Shown: in pieces, positions 18,920-29,795 of the stretch
Layout: the number at the start of each line of letters is the position of its first letter
Numbering within the stretch: the first letter of the stretch is position 1
The notes under the pieces: model-generated
The model's database searches: none
What the model was told of the DNA's origin: nothing
The model's input: only the letters and a program-made list of their open reading frames with translations
IMG/VR virus record: IMGVR_UViG_3300031758_000350
Location: 1 to 31,412 of that record
DNA: 31,412 nt
DNA from: a virus
Strand: one strand, 5' to 3'
Translations under genes and position numbers: made by a program

Positions 18920-18954
18920 TTTTAATAAGGGATGGGGTTTACAGACCCCATCCC
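18920..18954 (-). terminator. Terminator-like hairpin after the capsid gene
   Basis: In the leftward transcript a perfect 10-bp stem GGGATGGGGT/ACCCCATCCC (18954-18945 with 18938-18929, 6-nt loop) is followed by TTATTAAAA, a weak U-tract. It lies between the capsid stop and the next start. Partial termination would make capsid mRNA more abundant than the downstream neck and tail genes. Confidence 0.65.
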
Positions 18955-18979: not shown

Positions 18980-20050
18980 TTAAGGATTGGTTACCTGAAT
19001 ACCGTTAGCGAAAGTAACCCCTTCCATCGGATGACCAGCAGGATAAAGATCGTTAGGCAGTCCAACGGTCTTAGTGGTAGCGGTCATGATGATTGAGATG
19101 TCACCGCAATCCTCTTTGATGATAAGGTCAACAGGGATGCCAGTGATAGGGTCAGCGACAACGGTTTCAAAGTAGTTGCGGTAGGTCATATCCAAAGCAG
19201 CAAAGCCTGAGATGTCCAGTGCAGGTCTTCCCCAAGTAGCAGTCAGCAGTTGGATAGAGTTAGACTGCAACATCAATGATACGTTGTTACCGAACTCCTG
19301 TGCTACATAGTAGTCATAAACTACTGCCTCACCGAACTGTTCAGCGATGGCAAGAGCATCAAGTCCATCCTGAGTGCAGCATCCTACGTTAAGCAATCTC
19401 CAAGCAGTCCAAAGGTCGATACCGCCTGTGATCAGGGTAGGGGCACAGAAACCAGTCAGCACCTTCGCAGCGTTCACACGCTCGAACCAAGCCGGATCAT
19501 TCTTATCGTTGGCATCTTTGGTGGCAACTTCAAGGAAGTCATCAGCAGTCAGCCATGAAGGATCTACGGCATTGGAGTAAGTTCCCAGCAGTGGGTTCAG
19601 TTCAGCAGCTTGTTTCTCAGCAACGGCAGGGATCAAACCGTCAAGCATATTAACAAGGGTGTCGAAGATGATAGTACCATCTGACTTGCATGACTCATTC
19701 CAGTCAGCGAGGTTGACTTTACGCTCGATACGAAGACCGTCAGTGCAGTCGATAGTATAGGTAGCGTAGTTGTCACCTTGCTCGGTGGTAGCGGTACAAA
19801 CCTTATCACATGACTCTACTGCAGTCACATCGGACACGGGAGCAGGTTGTGTATAGGTCAGCTGAACTGTTCTTTTCTTGCCTGTTACGGGCTGAATCAA
19901 CTGAGAGATACCGGAGCGATTGATTGGAGAGTTAGTCCAGATCAGGGTAGGGGTTTGCACTCTTCGGGTAGAAGGGCAGGTGTTGAAATAACGTACCAGT
20001 TCTTCCTGAAGTGCAGGACATGGCGTTATAGTGTTATTAAACGTTGACAT
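18980..20050 (-). CDS. Probable major capsid protein, 356 aa
   Basis: Identified by position (directly after the scaffold), by size, by its own strong promoter and structured leader, and by flanking terminators on both sides, as expected for the most abundant virion protein. The sequence is beta/alpha mixed without recognisable catalytic motifs. Unusual: ten cysteines (residues 11, 25, 81, 85, 102, 121, 202, 224, 225, 315), suggesting disulfide or metal cross-links. No HK97-fold family match can be claimed by eye. Confidence 0.7.
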   Translation of the reverse strand: MSTFNNTITPCPALQEELVRYFNTCPSTRRVQTPTLIWTNSPINRSGISQLIQPVTGKKRTVQLTYTQPAPVSDVTAVESCDKVCTATTEQGDNYATYTIDCTDGLRIERKVNLADWNESCKSDGTIIFDTLVNMLDGLIPAVAEKQAAELNPLLGTYSNAVDPSWLTADDFLEVATKDANDKNDPAWFERVNAAKVLTGFCAPTLITGGIDLWTAWRLLNVGCCTQDGLDALAIAEQFGEAVVYDYYVAQEFGNNVSLMLQSNSIQLLTATWGRPALDISGFAALDMTYRNYFETVVADPITGIPVDLIIKEDCGDISIIMTATTKTVGLPNDLYPAGHPMEGVTFANGIQVTNP

Positions 20051-20089
20051 TTGTATGTGAAAGTTAAATGGTTAAAGATTAAAATGTAA

Positions 20090-20158
20090 CCCTATTCAAG
20101 TGGCAGGGAAGCCAAATAAGATTACCCCATTTAAAGATGCCAGGAGTGACGGCAAATG
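20090..20158 (-). ncRNA. Capsid leader with two tandem H-type pseudoknot modules
   Basis: Module 1 (20158-20124): stem UGCC/GGCA (20154-20151 with 20141-20138); loop ACUCC (20147-20143) pairs with GGGGU (20128-20124). Module 2 (20118-20090): stem UGGC/GCCA (20114-20111 with 20104-20101); loop CCCU (20108-20105) pairs with AGGG (20093-20090). Both begin with AUU before the stem and have a linker of the CUUnAA type between the stem and the second helix. The same pair of modules, with compensating base changes, precedes the tail-tube-like gene (29693-29765). The transcript from the promoter at 20190-20182 would carry both before the ATG at 20050. Confidence 0.65.
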
Positions 20159-20179
20159 ATGCGACCTAAAGCACATCGG

Positions 20180-20214
20180 TTGCAAAGATAATCAATTATA
20201 ACTGAATGTAGCAA
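20180..20214 (-). promoter_or_regulatory. Late promoter for the capsid gene (TATCTTTGC)
   Basis: Reverse strand AATTGATTATCTTTGCAA (20197-20180) is identical over 18 bp to the tail-tube promoter at 29795-29778. The -7 box is TATCTTTGC (20190-20182); a TTG at 20214-20212 lies 21 bp upstream. Transcription would begin near 20176. Confidence 0.8.
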
Positions 20215-20223
20215 GTCAATTGA

Positions 20224-20256
20224 ATAAAAAAACCCCACCGGAGCGACACGGTGGGG
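20224..20256 (-). terminator. Rho-independent terminator after the scaffold gene
   Basis: Leftward stem CCCCACCG/CGGTGGGG (20256-20249 with 20240-20233) with an 8-nt loop and a run of seven T followed by ATT. It isolates the scaffold transcript from the capsid promoter 35 bp further on. Confidence 0.9.
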
Positions 20257-20285
20257 CGGAGAAAAGAAACAAACAACAGAAGCGA

Positions 20286-21140
20286 TTACAATAGATTATC
20301 AAACATCGGGTTCACCCTACGCTTTCCACTTGGTGCAGGTGGTTGGTACTGAGTTCGTGCGGGTTGACCTGCCTGTGGTGTCGGCTGACCGACTCCCTGT
20401 GGCACGGGCTTACCTGACTGCGGATTCTCAGCAAAGATATTGAATTTTTTTGCTGCTTCGACAAATACTTCTTCAGGTGCTTTCCACTCATCCGCTTTCT
20501 TTTCAGATCGGATGCGGTTACCTGAAGCGTCCAAGACAATCGGCTTTTCCTGATCATCAAAGTCAAGGCGGTAGTTGGAACTGATGTAAGAGTTGAAGCC
20601 CTCCTTTTCAAGTTCAGTGATATTGGGCTTAAACTTAATCTTAGACATCAGATCGGTTCGGAGGTAGTTACGCTTAACATCCTTAACCTGACTGTGCGCA
20701 TGACCCTTAAAGGTTTCAAACTCAGATGCTAACTGTTTGCGCAGGTTTTCTTCCTCCGATGCCCGTTTCTGAGCCTTATCGAATTTCTCCTGCCATTCCT
20801 TGACCACATCATCACCGTTTGCTCCTGCTTTCTGTTTCAGGCTTTCAAGTTCTGACTTGAATTTACCCGTCACTTTATCAGTCAATGTCTTGAAAGTTTC
20901 GAGATTGTCAAGTTCATCGAATTCAGACAGGGTAAACTCAGCACCCAGTTCACGGGCATGGTTCAGCATCTTTTGTTTAACGACATTGGAGTGCTTACCA
21001 AGTGCAGGTTTAACAAAGCGATCGTATGCTGCTTTTTCATCCGAAACAGGCAGGTACTTTTCATGTAGTTTGGCTTTGAAGTCATCGAGTGAATTGACCT
21101 CATCAATGCCGAGATAGCCGAGAATATCCTTTGCTTCCAT
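20286..21140 (-). CDS. Capsid scaffolding protein, 284 aa
   Basis: Highly charged, with a long predicted coiled coil (residues about 78-150, FKTLTDKVTGKFKSELESLK and KAQKRASEEENLRKQLASEF), a more globular part (150-225) and a Pro/Gln-rich disordered segment (240-275), ending in a basic patch GKRRVNPMFDNLL. This is the usual architecture of a phage scaffold, and the gene lies directly upstream of the capsid gene. Overlaps the preceding small gene at TAATG. Confidence 0.8.
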   Translation of the reverse strand: MEAKDILGYLGIDEVNSLDDFKAKLHEKYLPVSDEKAAYDRFVKPALGKHSNVVKQKMLNHARELGAEFTLSEFDELDNLETFKTLTDKVTGKFKSELESLKQKAGANGDDVVKEWQEKFDKAQKRASEEENLRKQLASEFETFKGHAHSQVKDVKRNYLRTDLMSKIKFKPNITELEKEGFNSYISSNYRLDFDDQEKPIVLDASGNRIRSEKKADEWKAPEEVFVEAAKKFNIFAENPQSGKPVPQGVGQPTPQAGQPARTQYQPPAPSGKRRVNPMFDNLL

Positions 21141-21908: not shown

Positions 21909-22151
21909 ATGGATAATTCATTTGAACAATTATTAAAGGAAACGAGTGATGTTAGAGATAAGATTGATGAATTAGAGAGATTCAAGAAATCTAAAAGTAT
22001 AAAAAAGGATAAAGAGGAAAGTTTGTTAATAGGAATACAGATTCAAGCAATGAAAACCTTGCATTATGTATTGTATGAAAGGACTTGTATCGCTCTTAAT
22101 CGTAAGGACTACAGCCCTAACTCCCGCCTCTCAAAGTCATCAGGCTCATAG
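21909..22151 (+). CDS. Hypothetical coiled-coil protein, AT-rich, 80 aa
   Basis: Charged helical protein (EQLLKETSDVRDKIDELERF; QIQAMKTLHYVLYERT). AT-rich up to about 22105, where the frame enters the opposite-strand head gene; the last 14 residues overlap that gene's end. The real protein may have been extended by this fusion into reverse-strand DNA. No promoter is clear. Function unknown. Confidence 0.45.
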   Translation: MDNSFEQLLKETSDVRDKIDELERFKKSKSIKKDKEESLLIGIQIQAMKTLHYVLYERTCIALNRKDYSPNSRLSKSSGS

Positions 22152-23059
22152 TACCCCAGTTCAACCGCCCGTTTAACATCATCCAACGGCACGGCAAACA
22201 CCGACACGGGCATGATTGTATGGTTGCAGTTGTAACCTCCGGCATAGGTCAGGATGTTGTCCTTGTTCGTTTCCTCGTTACGCCCCTGCCATGATCCTTT
22301 CTGTGGCGTTTCAAATCCAGGTGTTTTGCGACCCTCACCCCACAACTCAATCTCTTTAATGTGAAAATACTTGCCGTACCTTTCACGGCAGAACGCCCGT
22401 GTGGTCTTCATCCGACCGCCTGAGTATAGATACCATTCAAATTCATACTCTTTGGCATACACTTGCGTCACCGACCTGTCAGCAATCCCAAAGGTATCTA
22501 AGGCGATGGATCGAGAGTACCGCATCAGCCGACTCTCTACCTCATCCGACCCTTCGATAAACTCCCGAAGTCCTGATAGCGTTTCAGCAAAGGTCTGATT
22601 ATTCACCACTGCCGTTTCAACGATGTCACGGATAGGGTATAGAAACTCGCTATCCGCAGCACGGTTGATCAGCAGGTCAACGGCATTACGCTTGGACTGC
22701 TCTACTATCGCAGCGATCACGGTCGGGGTGGTCGTGACATCAAAGGCTTTAGCGAAGTATGTGATGTTCAACTCAGCCTGAGTGTCGAAACCTTTGGCGA
22801 ACTCAGTCAGCGCACGGGTGTACTCTGAACCGACCATCACTTGCTTTAGTTGCTCGTTGATCTGAGCAGCCAGTCGGATGTTCTGTTCAGTCACCGCAAA
22901 CCGCCCGTCAACTATTTCAAGTTGATTGAGTAGTTCGACTAACCCCGCATAAATTTCCTTCTCCGACCTCTTGACCCCCGTTAAAAACTTATCGGGGATG
23001 TCATCGAGGTTGGCGTTCTTTTCAAGGATTATCTTATAAAAATCAGGTTGCTGAGCCAC
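22109..23059 (-). CDS. Phage head morphogenesis protein (Mu gpF-like), 316 aa
   Basis: The C-terminal domain has the family pattern: FEWYLYSGGRMKTTRAFCRE (about 208-226), GKYFHIKEIELW (229-240), W-x-G...N...LTYAGGYNCNHTIMPVS (257-286). The N-terminal two thirds are helical, as is usual for the minor capsid protein that follows the portal. Overlaps the end of the portal gene by 17 bp. Confidence 0.8.
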   Translation of the reverse strand: MAQQPDFYKIILEKNANLDDIPDKFLTGVKRSEKEIYAGLVELLNQLEIVDGRFAVTEQNIRLAAQINEQLKQVMVGSEYTRALTEFAKGFDTQAELNITYFAKAFDVTTTPTVIAAIVEQSKRNAVDLLINRAADSEFLYPIRDIVETAVVNNQTFAETLSGLREFIEGSDEVESRLMRYSRSIALDTFGIADRSVTQVYAKEYEFEWYLYSGGRMKTTRAFCRERYGKYFHIKEIELWGEGRKTPGFETPQKGSWQGRNEETNKDNILTYAGGYNCNHTIMPVSVFAVPLDDVKRAVELGYYEPDDFERRELGL

Positions 23060-24923
23060 TTGCTATTGCATTAACTAATGATTGCGGTGAGGTAGGTCGT
23101 GATGCCCTTGATGATGCAGCAACCGACTGAGCCTTCGCCACTAACTGATCAATCTGAGCCTGTATATCCTGATCGAAGTAGGACGGGTTCTCTCTGACCA
23201 AGTCCATCACAAACGAAACGGCTGAGTCGTGAAGCACCACTTCCCAATCAGAGATAACGCCACGTGCTAACTTCATAGTCACTTCTTCGTCATCCATCGT
23301 CAGGAGCCTGTCAGACTGAACAATCAGGTTGAACGCTGAAGCTGATTCAAGTTGATTGTAAAAGAGAGTCTTAAGATACTTCAGTACAATCGTATGCACC
23401 ACAAACGGAGGCAGACCATTCTTAATAGCCAAACTGATCTCCATCAGGTAGTCATATTCAGTCTTGAAGTCAAAGGTTATCGGAGGTGTCAGGATGAACT
23501 CCTGTGGCTCACCGTAACGCTCAATACCTATCCAGTACAGGATAAACTCACCGACCTCGAACTGCTGATCTATGATAGGCTTAATAAAGGCATACAAAGC
23601 CTTCTCATCTATCACCATACCCGTAGCGGTCATATCTTCAGCACCTTGTACCTGAGTGGATGTGTCACGGATATGAAGCACACGCCTCGCCTCACGGATA
23701 TGTGCATTCACCTCATCACGGGTGAACTGAGGCACATCAACCGATGGGGCAACGTAGTACATCGCAGGTTGTGATGCCTTCAGTTCACCTGGATCACCAG
23801 GTTGTTCAGGCTTCATCAGCATCACCCCGTATGGACTGATACGATCTTTTAAGCCCGACCCACCACACGAAGGGCATTTCATCTGCACTCCCGTTTCATA
23901 GTTATCGAACCAACCACGCCCGTCACAACATTTGATCTCACCACCGAGTTCCATCTTATGCTCACAGATGTTACCCGTCATCACACGATAGGGAAACATC
24001 GTAGTAGCCTTAACACCTCTGAGCATATTAGCGTCAATGATCGCCTCATCAAGTGCCGGAACAACGTAACTGAACGGACTAACGTAAGCGATCTCACCGT
24101 TACGGTATTCAGGTATTCCACCTAACACCTTAACGGGTATCTCGCCTCTGTCGTGTCGGTAGTATTCAACCACATCGAATGTCATATCTGACTTACGACC
24201 CGTTTGGATGATCTTGTAGATAGCGGTCTGATCGTATAGTTCGTAAACAAACCCTTCACGGACACGGGTGTTACCGTATTCGACCATTGACTTCTCATCG
24301 GTCAGAAACAAGTAGTACTCATTGTCCTCATATGAATGTAACTGAGCGCAGGAGTAGTAGTGCGGTATCGGTTCAAGCAGATCGGATGACATGACCATCT
24401 GACCATCGACCTCTTCAACAGGTATGGACTCAGGCTTGACCACTATGTAACCCATAGCGTCAATCATCGACACAAGCGGAATAACCTGCTTTTGGTATTC
24501 CTCCCATGACATTTTAATCTGAGTCTTCTTCAGTCCTTTCTCCACATACCACCTGAACCCACCCTCCTGACCTTCGTCATTCGGGAACTCTATAGCCCAG
24601 TTATTGTCAGCATAGGCACGTTTAATAGTGTTCTGCCAATCGACTGCAACGGGTAGGGTGATCTGCTTGTAGTTCATCTCTACATACCTACGCTCGGCAT
24701 CGGTCATGTTTGGCGCACGGTGTTCGATCAGTCGGTATGGGTAAGTGCCTCTGATAGCGTGAACACGGATTTCTTCCATAGCATCCACGTTCTGCCAGTA
24801 GCCTTCATAGTATTCGTGCTTAGTTTCCTTTCGCTTAATGAAAGGCAAGTCACCAAAGTCGGTTTTCTTTTCAATCTTCAGCACACCTTCAACGATGTCC
24901 TGAATCTGATTAATAGTTAGCAT
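23043..24923 (-). CDS. Portal protein with inserted Cys-rich (zinc-ribbon-like) segment, 626 aa
   Basis: Identified by size, by position before the gpF-like gene, and by portal-like features: a basic, aromatic N-terminal region, ITLPVAVDWQNTIKRAYADN, and a long C-terminal helix/acidic region. Residues about 320-355 contain C320-x-H, C332C333, and C350-x-x-C353 with GRGWFDNYETG between, followed by GGSG, which resembles a DnaJ-type zinc site placed in the middle of the protein. Ends in a Ser/Ala-rich tail. Confidence 0.75.
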   Translation of the reverse strand: MLTINQIQDIVEGVLKIEKKTDFGDLPFIKRKETKHEYYEGYWQNVDAMEEIRVHAIRGTYPYRLIEHRAPNMTDAERRYVEMNYKQITLPVAVDWQNTIKRAYADNNWAIEFPNDEGQEGGFRWYVEKGLKKTQIKMSWEEYQKQVIPLVSMIDAMGYIVVKPESIPVEEVDGQMVMSSDLLEPIPHYYSCAQLHSYEDNEYYLFLTDEKSMVEYGNTRVREGFVYELYDQTAIYKIIQTGRKSDMTFDVVEYYRHDRGEIPVKVLGGIPEYRNGEIAYVSPFSYVVPALDEAIIDANMLRGVKATTMFPYRVMTGNICEHKMELGGEIKCCDGRGWFDNYETGVQMKCPSCGGSGLKDRISPYGVMLMKPEQPGDPGELKASQPAMYYVAPSVDVPQFTRDEVNAHIREARRVLHIRDTSTQVQGAEDMTATGMVIDEKALYAFIKPIIDQQFEVGEFILYWIGIERYGEPQEFILTPPITFDFKTEYDYLMEISLAIKNGLPPFVVHTIVLKYLKTLFYNQLESASAFNLIVQSDRLLTMDDEEVTMKLARGVISDWEVVLHDSAVSFVMDLVRENPSYFDQDIQAQIDQLVAKAQSVAASSRASRPTSPQSLVNAIASGSAT

Positions 24924-26662: not shown

Positions 26663-26904
26663 GAGTTGATATAATCTGACATTAACTTTTCCATGTTACT
26701 GAATGACTCTAATACTTCAAACTCATCACCGTTGTAATCAACTATATTGATCACATCATAGCCGTTAGCCGTTCCCGCATCAAAGAATCTTGACACGGTT
26801 GATAAGTCCATCCATAACTTTGACTCTGAGATTACTCCAGTCACCCCCATTGACTCAAGCTGAGTGTCACGGGTGAATATCTTAAACTTGTGCCACTTGC
26901 TCAT
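26659..26904 (-). CDS. Hypothetical protein, 81 aa
   Basis: ATG 26904 is preferred; the frame is open further upstream, but that part is the shadow of the large glycosyltransferase gene. The product is compact and acidic (SKWHKFKIFTRDTQLESMGV; FDAGTANGYDVINIVDYNGD; EVLESFSNMEKLM). Overlaps the fusion gene by 23 bp. Function unknown. Confidence 0.55.
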   Translation of the reverse strand: MSKWHKFKIFTRDTQLESMGVTGVISESKLWMDLSTVSRFFDAGTANGYDVINIVDYNGDEFEVLESFSNMEKLMSDYINS

Positions 26905-29098
26905 AGGTGTTCCATTTTTTGGTGAGTATGGTTCTGTCCCACTGGTTGGGGACTTTGTCGGTAACGTAGTAGTGGAGATCACCTGTAATATCGCATCTGT
27001 CCGCAAAGTTGACAAGGGAGGAGTCGATGGCGTGGATTTCCGCAGCCTTTTCAATGACCTTGCGCCAGTCGAATATAGTGTAGTCACCCACCTTCCTAAA
27101 CTGAACAACACGAAGATCAGTGCGTACATCAGCAGCAGTGCCATAATCAGAGTCATTGTGAACAAGAGCGTAACCACCCGAAGCATCACCAATAACCAAG
27201 TGATATAACTCTTCTTCCCTTTGGTAGTTCCTTTCGTAATTAAGGCTACCAATCTCAGATAACGGAACTTCAGCGATTTCATATTTCAGTGTTACGAATG
27301 AATCCAATTGTTTCTGCCGTGATAGCCATAAGCGGTGTGATGGTGACTTGTGGTTAAGTCCGAATGAAAGATCAACGGTCTTATCATAGTACCCTTCAGC
27401 CCTTTCAACTGGTGTCACATACGGCACGAAGTTAAACAGGGTGTGGTACTCTTTTTGGACTAACCATTCAACTTTATATCCCCTGTCGGAATACCATTTG
27501 GCGATCGGCAAACAGATGATAATATCCCCAACCTTGCCCGGCTGATGGAGTAACAACCGCTTCACCTGACCAATGTCAAGTACCGATGTGATCTCAATCG
27601 GCTGATACCCTCCTACCAAGCGATCTGCCTGAGTATAGGTGCGGTGATTGGATTCGTGAAGGTGGTATGTCTTTATATCTTTAGCGCAGTTCGATAACCT
27701 GTAACCCGCCATCATCGCATCATAAGCAAATCGGTTATCACAACCAGGTACTCCGAGTGGGTAGTCTGCGCCCGTGATACGGATCCGACCTTTGAACATC
27801 CATGAGTCTTGTGAATGTGAGTAGGCAAACAGTTTAGCACCGCCACCCTTGACATCGTAACGGCAGAGGGCTATCATGCAATCGGTCATATCTACCTTAT
27901 CAAGCCAGTTAATGGATGAGTCAAAGTAAATGTCCGAGTTAGCGATAATTGTGTACTCCCCACCTGCTATGTTAGCCTCTTCAATGAAGTCCTGATAGGT
28001 CGGGCGGTCGTATGTTAGGTTAACTACTTTCGGGTGATCGAACTCAGTTCCGAGATTGTATATTTTTGAAATTATGGAATTATTGATATTCGCCATCATG
28101 CAAGTGTCCAACTCTTTCTGACGGTCTGAGTTGTCAACCTTGTAATATGATGTGAACAGATACACCGATCCGTTAACGGGTGTGGTTGGTTTGGGTTGCT
28201 CCTTGAAAAAACGTTTAGCAAAAGCACCCCGTCCGAGTCCGTTGTTTTTCATCTTTGTGTTAGTTGCCTTGTTTGCGATCTTAGCCCCTGCGATCATGTC
28301 CCACTTATACGCCCGTCCAAGCGGTGCGAGAGTGCCGTCATAACCCATGACATAGGGCTTCTTGATGTTCTGAGCAGTGCCGAACATACTCAGCAGATAA
28401 TATCCCGCCTTAACCTCGCCCCATGTCCTACTGAACGAATCACCCCAATAGACAATGTTGTCAGGTATTGACGGGTCATAGCCTAATTGAGCGAGTGTGA
28501 TGTTTAGGTAAAGTTCATCAGGCTGACCACCGCCCCACTTAGACCGTAGCCGTTCAAGTGGTATGCGGTTGGAGTAGTTCGCCTGAATCCGACCAAACAG
28601 GTCACGGCAAAACTCACCCTTTCTGATATACTGAAGGCTACTCTGTGTTGCAGGTAGCCTGTGTGTGTTGTCGAAGTTATAATGTGACCAAATGACCGAC
28701 CGATCAGCCCATACCATCATCGGTAGCTTATCGGGTGCGGTTTGGTCGTACCAAGCGTGAACGTGGCAACGGTAGTCACCGCCTTTAGCCAATTCATCGA
28801 AAAGTGGTTCAAGTGGATTAAGCACTAAGCCATCCACATCCATAAATAATGTTTCCTCATAAGGCAACTTGTCGTACACCTGCATCTTCATCAGAGCAGG
28901 GTCGGACGGGGTTGACTGCATCGGAATGATCTGATCGAATAGGGTCAGATCCCTGAGTCCTTTGCGTGTTTCATCATCACAGATGATTGTCACGGGAAGC
29001 GAGGGGCTGACATGACGGATGGACATAGCAAGGTTATGAGCAGCATAGCCGTATGCCCTTGCACCCCATGTCATCATCAGCACCCCACGTGATCCCAT
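26882..29098 (-). CDS. Multidomain glycosyltransferase, three predicted modules, 738 aa
   Basis: Module 1 (about 1-270) is a GT-A-like domain with MMTWGARAYGYAAHNLAMSI, VTIICDDETRK and the DxD motif LFMDVDGL (84-91). Module 2 (about 310-500) starts VYLFTSYYKVDNSDRQKELD and has TIIANSDIYFDSSI (383-396) and GCDNRFAYDAMMAGY, like another GT-A domain. Module 3 (about 513-738) starts LLLHQPGKVGDIIICLPIAK, the hallmark of GT-B glycosyltransferases of the heptosyltransferase (GT9-like) type, with a conserved C-terminal half. It lies directly after the tail-tube-like gene without a gap. Likely role: build a glycan on virion protein. Only module 1's DxD and module 3's Rossmann start are strong. Confidence 0.7.
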   Translation of the reverse strand: MGSRGVLMMTWGARAYGYAAHNLAMSIRHVSPSLPVTIICDDETRKGLRDLTLFDQIIPMQSTPSDPALMKMQVYDKLPYEETLFMDVDGLVLNPLEPLFDELAKGGDYRCHVHAWYDQTAPDKLPMMVWADRSVIWSHYNFDNTHRLPATQSSLQYIRKGEFCRDLFGRIQANYSNRIPLERLRSKWGGGQPDELYLNITLAQLGYDPSIPDNIVYWGDSFSRTWGEVKAGYYLLSMFGTAQNIKKPYVMGYDGTLAPLGRAYKWDMIAGAKIANKATNTKMKNNGLGRGAFAKRFFKEQPKPTTPVNGSVYLFTSYYKVDNSDRQKELDTCMMANINNSIISKIYNLGTEFDHPKVVNLTYDRPTYQDFIEEANIAGGEYTIIANSDIYFDSSINWLDKVDMTDCMIALCRYDVKGGGAKLFAYSHSQDSWMFKGRIRITGADYPLGVPGCDNRFAYDAMMAGYRLSNCAKDIKTYHLHESNHRTYTQADRLVGGYQPIEITSVLDIGQVKRLLLHQPGKVGDIIICLPIAKWYSDRGYKVEWLVQKEYHTLFNFVPYVTPVERAEGYYDKTVDLSFGLNHKSPSHRLWLSRQKQLDSFVTLKYEIAEVPLSEIGSLNYERNYQREEELYHLVIGDASGGYALVHNDSDYGTAADVRTDLRVVQFRKVGDYTIFDWRKVIEKAAEIHAIDSSLVNFADRCDITGDLHYYVTDKVPNQWDRTILTKKWNTYEQVAQV

Positions 29099-29109: not shown

Positions 29110-29661
29110 TTAACCGAAGATCGGGTTAGCAGTCTGAACTGCGAGGTCGTTAGACTTGAAGGTAAAGTTCACCTCATAACGGATGTACTCGGAGTTAGTG
29201 TTAGGAATAACAAGACCACCTGAGAAAGAGATCTCAGCGTCAACAAACACCTGGATGTCTGTCAGTCCTGCGGTATCGCACACCTTCATAATCATTCCAC
29301 CTACAACGTAGCCTCCGATCAGCTTGTTGACGAACTCAGTATTGTTCGTATTAACTTGAGCAGCGAAGAGAGTTCCGGTATAGACGTTATTGATTACGAT
29401 GGGAGAGCCACAGGCAGTGACGGGGTCTTGAGTTTCCTGTGTGGGGGCTTCTAAGCCTACTTTGACGTTCTCAAGAATCCAAGCGTTACCACCGTCAATG
29501 AGTGCCTGTACTTCAGCCTCATCAGTCGGGTCAGCGAGTGTCTGACCGCAGCCAATGAGTATAACCTGAGATACACCACCTTTGCGGTAGGTAGTACATT
29601 GTTCGAGAGTACTGTCAAAAGTGCCTAAGTCCTCACAGTTGTAAGCAGCACAATTTGCCAT
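29110..29661 (-). CDS. Probable major tail (tube) protein, 183 aa
   Basis: Small, neutral, beta-rich, Gly/Thr/Val-rich protein without catalytic motifs, with its own late promoter and structured leader, as expected for a highly expressed virion protein. The N-terminus is Cys-rich (MANCAAYNCED, EQC, IGCG), and the C-terminal part has FVDAEISFSGGLVIPNTNSE and YIRYEVNFTFKSND. Tail tube is favoured over head decoration because the capsid gene lies far away and a tail protein follows upstream. Not proved. Confidence 0.55.
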   Translation of the reverse strand: MANCAAYNCEDLGTFDSTLEQCTTYRKGGVSQVILIGCGQTLADPTDEAEVQALIDGGNAWILENVKVGLEAPTQETQDPVTACGSPIVINNVYTGTLFAAQVNTNNTEFVNKLIGGYVVGGMIMKVCDTAGLTDIQVFVDAEISFSGGLVIPNTNSEYIRYEVNFTFKSNDLAVQTANPIFG

Positions 29662-29692
29662 TTTAATTACAGTTTAATGTATTGATTTAAAC

Positions 29693-29765
29693 CGCTTTTT
29701 GAAGATGCCAAGCGAGGGAAGGCAAATGAATTGTCCCTTTTTAAAGTGGTCGGGGAGACCAAATG
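29693..29765 (-). ncRNA. Tail-tube leader with two tandem H-type pseudoknot modules
   Basis: Module 1 (29765-29734): stem UGGUC/GACCA (29761-29757 with 29751-29747); loop UCCC (29756-29753) pairs with GGGA (29737-29734). Module 2 (29728-29693): stem UGCC/GGCA (29724-29721 with 29709-29706); loop CGCUU (29714-29710) pairs with AAGCG (29697-29693). Each starts CAUU before the stem, and the 8-9 nt linkers both contain CUUnAA. Same arrangement as 20090-20158. In module 1 the first loop has no spare nucleotide, so its second helix may be three pairs in practice. Confidence 0.65.
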
Positions 29766-29777
29766 CGCTTTAGGTAA

Positions 29778-29795
29778 TTGCAAAGATAATCAATT
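29778..29795 (-). promoter_or_regulatory. Late promoter for the tail-tube-like gene (TATCTTTGC)
   Basis: AATTGATTATCTTTGCAA on the reverse strand, identical over 18 bp to the capsid promoter. The -7 box is TATCTTTGC (29788-29780). No TTG at -33, so the AATTGAT extension may replace it. Confidence 0.75.

Follow-up and report, generated by a model that had tools for sequence, protein, structure and literature searches.

Pseudoknotted leaders, mostly tandem, precede putative capsid and tail-tube genes in a family of probable Bacteroidota phages

Results

The window, i.e. the whole stretch of DNA analysed here, corresponds to the 31.4 kb virus record IMGVR_UViG_3300031758_000350. Its primase-associated protein is similar to proteins of Flavobacterium and Cellulophaga phages and its portal resembles that of Polaribacter phage P12002L, and on the basis of these sequence resemblances the host is likely a member of the Bacteroidota. 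The putative major capsid gene owes its name to its place among the structural genes and to weak matches of a low-confidence model to the HK97-type fold, and the putative tail-tube gene to a further low-confidence model, for which each fold match is weak while the best solved-structure matches are nearly all of the tail-tube fold (lambda gpV, T5 pb6, Sf11, monocin and P1). With AlphaFold pLDDT values of 43 for the capsid and 41 for the tube, we treat the fold matches as supporting hints only. The glycosyltransferase-like gene that follows the tube gene encodes a product that may modify virion proteins and is kept in the related locus G145 (E about 1e-152). Two CxxCxGxG zinc-knuckle-like motifs occur in the portal protein and also in the portal of P12002L.

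Computational folding of the minus strand placed two compact H-type pseudoknots before the putative capsid gene (M1 and M2) and two before the putative tail-tube gene (M3 and M4, Table 1). The first-pass annotation had described four modules in these two leaders; all four are present at the stated coordinates, and a descriptor (ATT-stem-loop-stem-(N)CTTnAA) applied to both strands of the whole window matched these four only. Both leaders begin at an identical promoter-like sequence and continue through the modules into an unstructured A/U-rich spacer. A 9-mer located just downstream of both promoters, in opposite orientations, occurs in three exact copies in the window, the third at 2421, and is possibly a DNA operator. 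The strong hairpin behind the capsid stop codon could be a terminator or a 3' protector.

Table 1. Features of the window and modules in leaders of related loci (S1, stem; S2, loop-tail helix; L3, linker)
Feature	Position	Strand	Details
Hairpin after capsid gene	18929..18954	-	strong, 10 bp, GGGAUGGGGU...ACCCCAUCCC; right after stop codon, without U-run
Putative major capsid gene	18980..20050	-	356 aa; portal, protease and scaffold genes lie upstream
Capsid spacer	20051..20089	-	39 nt, 79% A+U, unstructured, UUUAA repeats, up to start codon
M2, capsid leader	20090..20117	-	AUU-UGGC-UUCCCU-GCCA-CUUGAAU-AGGG; S1 UGGC/GCCA; loop UUCCCU; L3 CUUGAAU; S2 CCCU/AGGG
M1, capsid leader	20124..20157	-	AUU-UGCC-GUCACUCCU-GGCA-UCUUUAAAU-GGGGU; S1 UGCC/GGCA; loop GUCACUCCU; L3 UCUUUAAAU; S2 ACUCC/GGGGU
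Possible 5' hairpin	20158..20177	-	GAUGUG/CGCAUC, before M1
9-mer, capsid leader	20164-20172	-	GCTTTAGGT
Promoter-like, capsid leader	20180..20195	-	TTGATTATCTTTGCAA; Bacteroidota -7 type TAnnTTTG
Intrinsic terminator	20232..20257	-	between scaffold gene and capsid promoter
Scaffold gene	20286-21140	-	
Protease gene	22109-23059	-	
Portal gene	23043-24923	-	
Glycosyltransferase-like gene	26882-29098	-	738 aa; directly after tube gene
Putative tail-tube gene	29110..29661	-	183 aa
Tube spacer	29662..29691	-	30 nt, 87% A+U, unstructured, up to start codon
M4, tube leader	29692..29727	-	AUU-UGCC-UUCCCUCGCUU-GGCA-UCUUCAAA-AAGCGG; S1 UGCC/GGCA; loop UUCCCUCGCUU; L3 UCUUCAAA; S2 UCGCUU/AAGCGG
M3, tube leader	29734..29764	-	AUU-UGGUC-UCCCC-GACCA-CUUUAAAAA-GGGA; S1 UGGUC/GACCA; L3 CUUUAAAAA; S2 UCCC/GGGA (or CCC/GGG)
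9-mer, tube leader	29767-29775	+	GCTTTAGGT
Promoter-like, tube leader	29778..29793	-	TTGATTATCTTTGCAA
G145 capsid leader, first module			UGCCC-AGUCCUGC-GGGCA-UGAACGU-CAGGAU
G145 capsid leader, second module			UGCC-AGAUACGCA-GGCA-UGAA-UGCG
G145 tube leader			UUGCCGG-GAGCCCUU-CCGGCAA-AAAGACGC-AAGGG
G635, first module			CUGU-GCCGCGCA-GCAG-UAAA-GCGC
G635, second module			UGG-GUGCUCAA-CCA-GUUAAA-GAGCA
G555			AGGC-GACUAGUUGA-GCCU-AUCUAA-UCAAC, then second repeat with AGGA/UCCU
Subgroup (capsids 72-73% identical), first module			e.g. AUAGCGG-GACG-CUGCUAU, AUAACCG-GACG-CGGUUAU, ACAGCCG-GGCG-CGGUUGU
Part of subgroup, second module			AGGC-[..UCCGC]-GCCU-UGA-GCGGA or CAGGC-[..CCCGC]-GCCUG-UAA-GCGGG
G673 tube leader			AGCGUC-GGGGGC-GAUGCU-CUUAA-CCCC

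Across 200 dinucleotide shuffles of the window the descriptor found 0.085 matches on average, one at most and never a tandem pair, although the resulting p-value is optimistic because the descriptor was written after the copies had been seen and was fitted to them. Scored against dinucleotide shuffles for two non-overlapping H-type pseudoknots, the two window leaders gave p=0.007 and p=0.003. The first-pass annotation had further argued that helix-preserving changes among the four copies indicate selected RNA structure. Swapping the tails among the four window loops yielded p=0.17, so these copies are by themselves insufficient to establish the loop-tail helix. This weak result is explained by three copies that all combine a pyrimidine loop with a G-rich tail, leaving M4 (UCGCUU/AAGCGG) as the sole clearly private pair. 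Such a value is what would be expected if the leaders held nothing beyond hairpins or mRNA secondary structure of an ordinary kind, the loop-tail pairing being a chance product of pyrimidine loops and G-rich tails, and pseudoknot-free folds do exist: in the minimum-energy fold without pseudoknots, M2 becomes part of a long hairpin with bulges. We nevertheless judge this explanation quite unlikely in view of the relatives' alignment, the exchange of tails among 19 modules, the scores of 16 leaders, the intergenic controls and the type-2 test presented below.

Two alternative pairings were observed in the window. The tail of M3 is able to pair with the loop of M4 instead of its own. A bulged-hairpin reading of the modules, with AUU paired to AAU and CUUn bulged, fits M2 but was not favoured, as it is weak in M3 and M4 and incompatible with S2.

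Searches at the RNA level did not lead to relatives. Every match from DNA pattern scans for the module or the tandem was either rejected by the stem and tandem filter or resembled coding sequence, both in viral contigs and, among the matches listed, in genome contigs. A tandem covariance model made from recombined window copies with the optional U dropped gave a match in one of 395 genomes of a Bacteroidota class at E=0.003, which is chance level and indicates that the module sequence is too poorly conserved for this kind of search. Single-protein searches of viral contigs and phage records with the capsid, tube and portal found nothing close; their sole outcome was a distant portal match in Polaribacter phages P12002L and P12002S, the loci of which are without the module. 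A capsid search gave no match in Flavobacteriales-type genomes, and in 395 genomes of one Bacteroidota class it retrieved G145 (36% identity, E=3e-63) and G248. A profile search added seven genomes from another order, and a subgroup profile eight genomes beyond three already known. The gene order of G145 is that of the window (tube, glycosyltransferase, portal, protease, scaffold, capsid), while several other relatives have the portal or neighbouring genes in common with it. These loci in Bacteroidota genomes are syntenic with the window and probably represent integrated prophages.

Pseudoknots of different sequence were found in the capsid leaders of the relatives and in five further tube leaders (Table 1), and in the homologous phages the pseudoknotted leader again lies between the scaffold and capsid genes. 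Within the subgroup, the loop-tail helix of the first module is ACG/CGU or GCG/CGC. In nine of the ten leaders measured, a distance of 27-41 nt separates the last module from the start codon, and this spacer has an A+U content of 66-89% with practically no folding. As the modules stand well upstream of the start codon, the start site is not covered. The tube leader of G673 places its pseudoknot only 8 nt from the start codon, and in G605 the leader is almost absent.

In the capsid leaders of L394, L399, L400 and L402, a first pseudoknot is followed at the end by two hairpins with complementary loops (ACCCUG/CAGGGU, CCCUG/CAGGG, UACCC/GGGUA), which we regard as a candidate kissing-loop domain replacing the second pseudoknot. 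In L395, L397 and L398 the scaffold stop codon lies inside a terminator-like hairpin with a covarying stem (GAGGGUU/AACCCUC, GAGGGAUA/UAUCCUC, GAGGG/CCCUC).

An alignment of eight subgroup sequences of the first module showed 100% of the scored pairs to be standard and four pairs to carry substitutions in both partners, including one pair of the loop-tail helix, so that both helices are compensated. Sliding the pairing partners destroyed the pairing. As the sequences are related, the shuffle counts are not strict probabilities. The two-pseudoknot score reached p<=0.033 against shuffles in 14 of 16 leaders (Fisher 9e-15), the remaining two being G706 (0.066) and the capsid leader of G673 (p=0.46). 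At the same level 44 coding controls behaved as expected by chance and 14% of 100 intergenic controls scored, giving a Mann-Whitney value of 3e-7 for leaders versus controls, or 3e-5 with one leader per subgroup. Across 19 modules, partly picked by eye, own tails paired better than exchanged ones with p=5e-5, the limit of 20,000 permutations. Locating modules by S1 AGGC/GCCU alone (type 2) avoids the choice by eye; for this set, which includes three related tube copies, tail shuffling gave a Fisher value of 1.6e-5 and an exact permutation count of 10/5040. The first-pass annotation had tied its case to covariation and to homologues before structural genes elsewhere, and both were found: compensatory change is present in the eight-sequence alignment, and homologous leaders precede the same genes in other phages. 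Its claim of selected structure is thus upheld by the relatives, and not by the four window copies on their own. Overall, the pseudoknotted leaders are syntenic across the phage family, their helices being kept by compensatory change while sequence identity has been lost.

That capsid and tail-tube leaders share one element, as also proposed from the window, holds for further phages whose sequences differ. When a covariance model was trained exclusively on the capsid-leader module of the subgroup, it detected another copy several kilobases away in L409 (E=7e-4) and, weakly, in L405 (0.34), each directly before a homologue of the window's tube gene as identified by profile iteration. L408 has the same tube leader by inspection, and the tube leaders of all three continue with AGGC-..AUCC..-GCCU-L3-GGAU. 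By inspection, G145 likewise has one module type in its capsid and tube leaders, while no such sharing was seen in G673. Capsid and tube modules are more alike within one genome than between genomes.

Discussion

Neither the window nor the relatives matched any family of Rfam 15 at the gathering threshold, and a lax search with both window leaders gave chance-level matches only, in agreement with the initial statement that the element is not a named motif. A ligand sensor, a protein-binding feedback site and an mRNA stabiliser had also been proposed at that stage, of which the ligand sensor is disfavoured and the other two stay plausible. The modules do combine an H-type topology with an A-rich third strand in a compact form reminiscent of preQ1-I geometry, and tandem aptamers are known. 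However, the preQ1-I covariance model (RF00522) did not match the window leaders, which lack the preQ1 consensus and precede virion genes, and across the relatives the loops and linkers keep no sequence, and hence no conserved pocket, beyond A-richness. As there is also no expression platform over the start codon and no Rfam match even at lax thresholds, we consider a metabolite-sensing riboswitch with tandem aptamers highly improbable.

A closer parallel is gene 32 of phages T4, T2 and RB69, where an H-type pseudoknot in the 5' leader also stands upstream of an unstructured A/U-rich stretch reaching into the start region. In T4, a pseudoknot located 67 nt upstream is bound by gp32, which extends from there along the A+U-rich stretch; the mRNA is unusually stable, and the RB69 operator differs from that of T4; a 2010 review of post-transcriptional control in T4 considered this pseudoknot maybe the only viral example for translational autoregulation (PMC3014915). 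In contrast, the leaders described here mostly carry a tandem pair, belong to phages of probable Bacteroidota hosts and precede putative capsid and tail-tube genes instead of a self-repressing single-strand-binding protein, and any binder is hypothetical. The main rival to the reading we favour below is modelled on gene 32: an excess virion or regulatory phage protein would bind the pseudoknots, spread into the A/U-rich spacer and repress translation, thereby balancing capsid and tube synthesis. The layout of pseudoknot, UUUAA-rich unstructured spacer and start codon matches that of T4 gene 32 (PMC3014915), and one module type before both genes within a phage, differing between phages, would be expected of a co-evolving binder. 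Against such an operator stand the almost complete lack of loop and linker conservation across the family and the fact that leader copying could equally produce the within-genome similarity; we regard it as possible but doubtful. The similarity of the two leaders within a genome favours a shared binder. Such a binder could further be envisaged as the centre of a fast-evolving, phage-specific RNA regulon, in which one phage-encoded RNA-binding protein, possibly the capsid or tube protein itself, would recognise the tandem pseudoknots of both leaders and balance head against tail, with protein and RNA co-evolving so that each lineage has its own version. At this stage, we consider this proposal speculative and rather improbable.

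Control at the level of transcription was considered as well. The put RNAs of HK022 likewise occur in pairs close to the 5' terminus of phage transcripts, though they are hairpins of lambdoid early operons and a polymerase effect is purely hypothetical here. A cis-acting antitermination or attenuation element of this kind would let polymerase pass the terminators around the capsid gene, consistent with the window's terminator before the capsid promoter, the strong hairpin after the capsid gene and the terminator-like hairpin at the scaffold stop codon of relatives. However, in the window the 11 nt gap that separates the tube gene from the gene after it holds no terminator, and most modules of the relatives have no recognisable promoter immediately upstream, which makes this explanation unlikely.

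Because the folds are kept though the sequences change almost completely, the leader pseudoknots probably help set the levels of the capsid and tail-tube proteins, to our knowledge the two most abundant proteins of the virion. That loop sequence has been lost across the family points to a function of the fold alone, and our tentatively preferred reading is a 5' domain which, through its fold, would protect the mRNA and hold the start region open. In this view the capsid or tail-tube mRNA would begin with a structural RNA domain, the leader, made up of usually two H-type pseudoknots in series, next about 27-41 nt of unstructured A/U-rich RNA and finally the start codon. Working through its fold, to which the sequence divergence among relatives is well suited, the domain would deny ribonucleases access from the 5' direction, or once processing or termination has occurred behind the scaffold gene, and would insulate the open start region, allowing unhindered ribosome loading. 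The expected outcome is long-lived, highly translated capsid and tube messages that are independent of neighbouring genes. Stabilisers of the ompA 5' UTR type similarly place a fold-dependent 5' structure before an abundantly expressed structural gene, but those are simple hairpins, whereas pseudoknots, two per leader, are found here. Several observations count against the favoured mechanism: the likeness of leaders within a genome is compatible as well with a trans-acting binder common to both, no enrichment was seen for the G673 capsid leader, G605 is nearly without a leader, the G673 tube spacer measures 8 nt, and pseudoknot-free folds compete in the window. Stabiliser and operator roles can coexist, as the T4 gene 32 leader itself sits on an unusually stable mRNA.

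Leader pseudoknots of phages are already known; a literature search that covered a minority of subscription papers returned no report of one in a phage capsid leader, and, as far as we could find, a family-wide set of mostly tandem, sequence-divergent pseudoknots ahead of capsid and tube genes is new. Such RNAs are missed by Rfam and by pattern scans, and it was synteny that revealed these leaders. Bacteroidota do without Shine-Dalgarno sequences and mRNA structure tunes initiation (PMC6847099). The leaders offer a concrete means of testing how tailed phages control the amounts of their two principal structural proteins in hosts whose translation does not rely on Shine-Dalgarno sequences, and they may provide a set of fold-defined expression parts for Bacteroidota.
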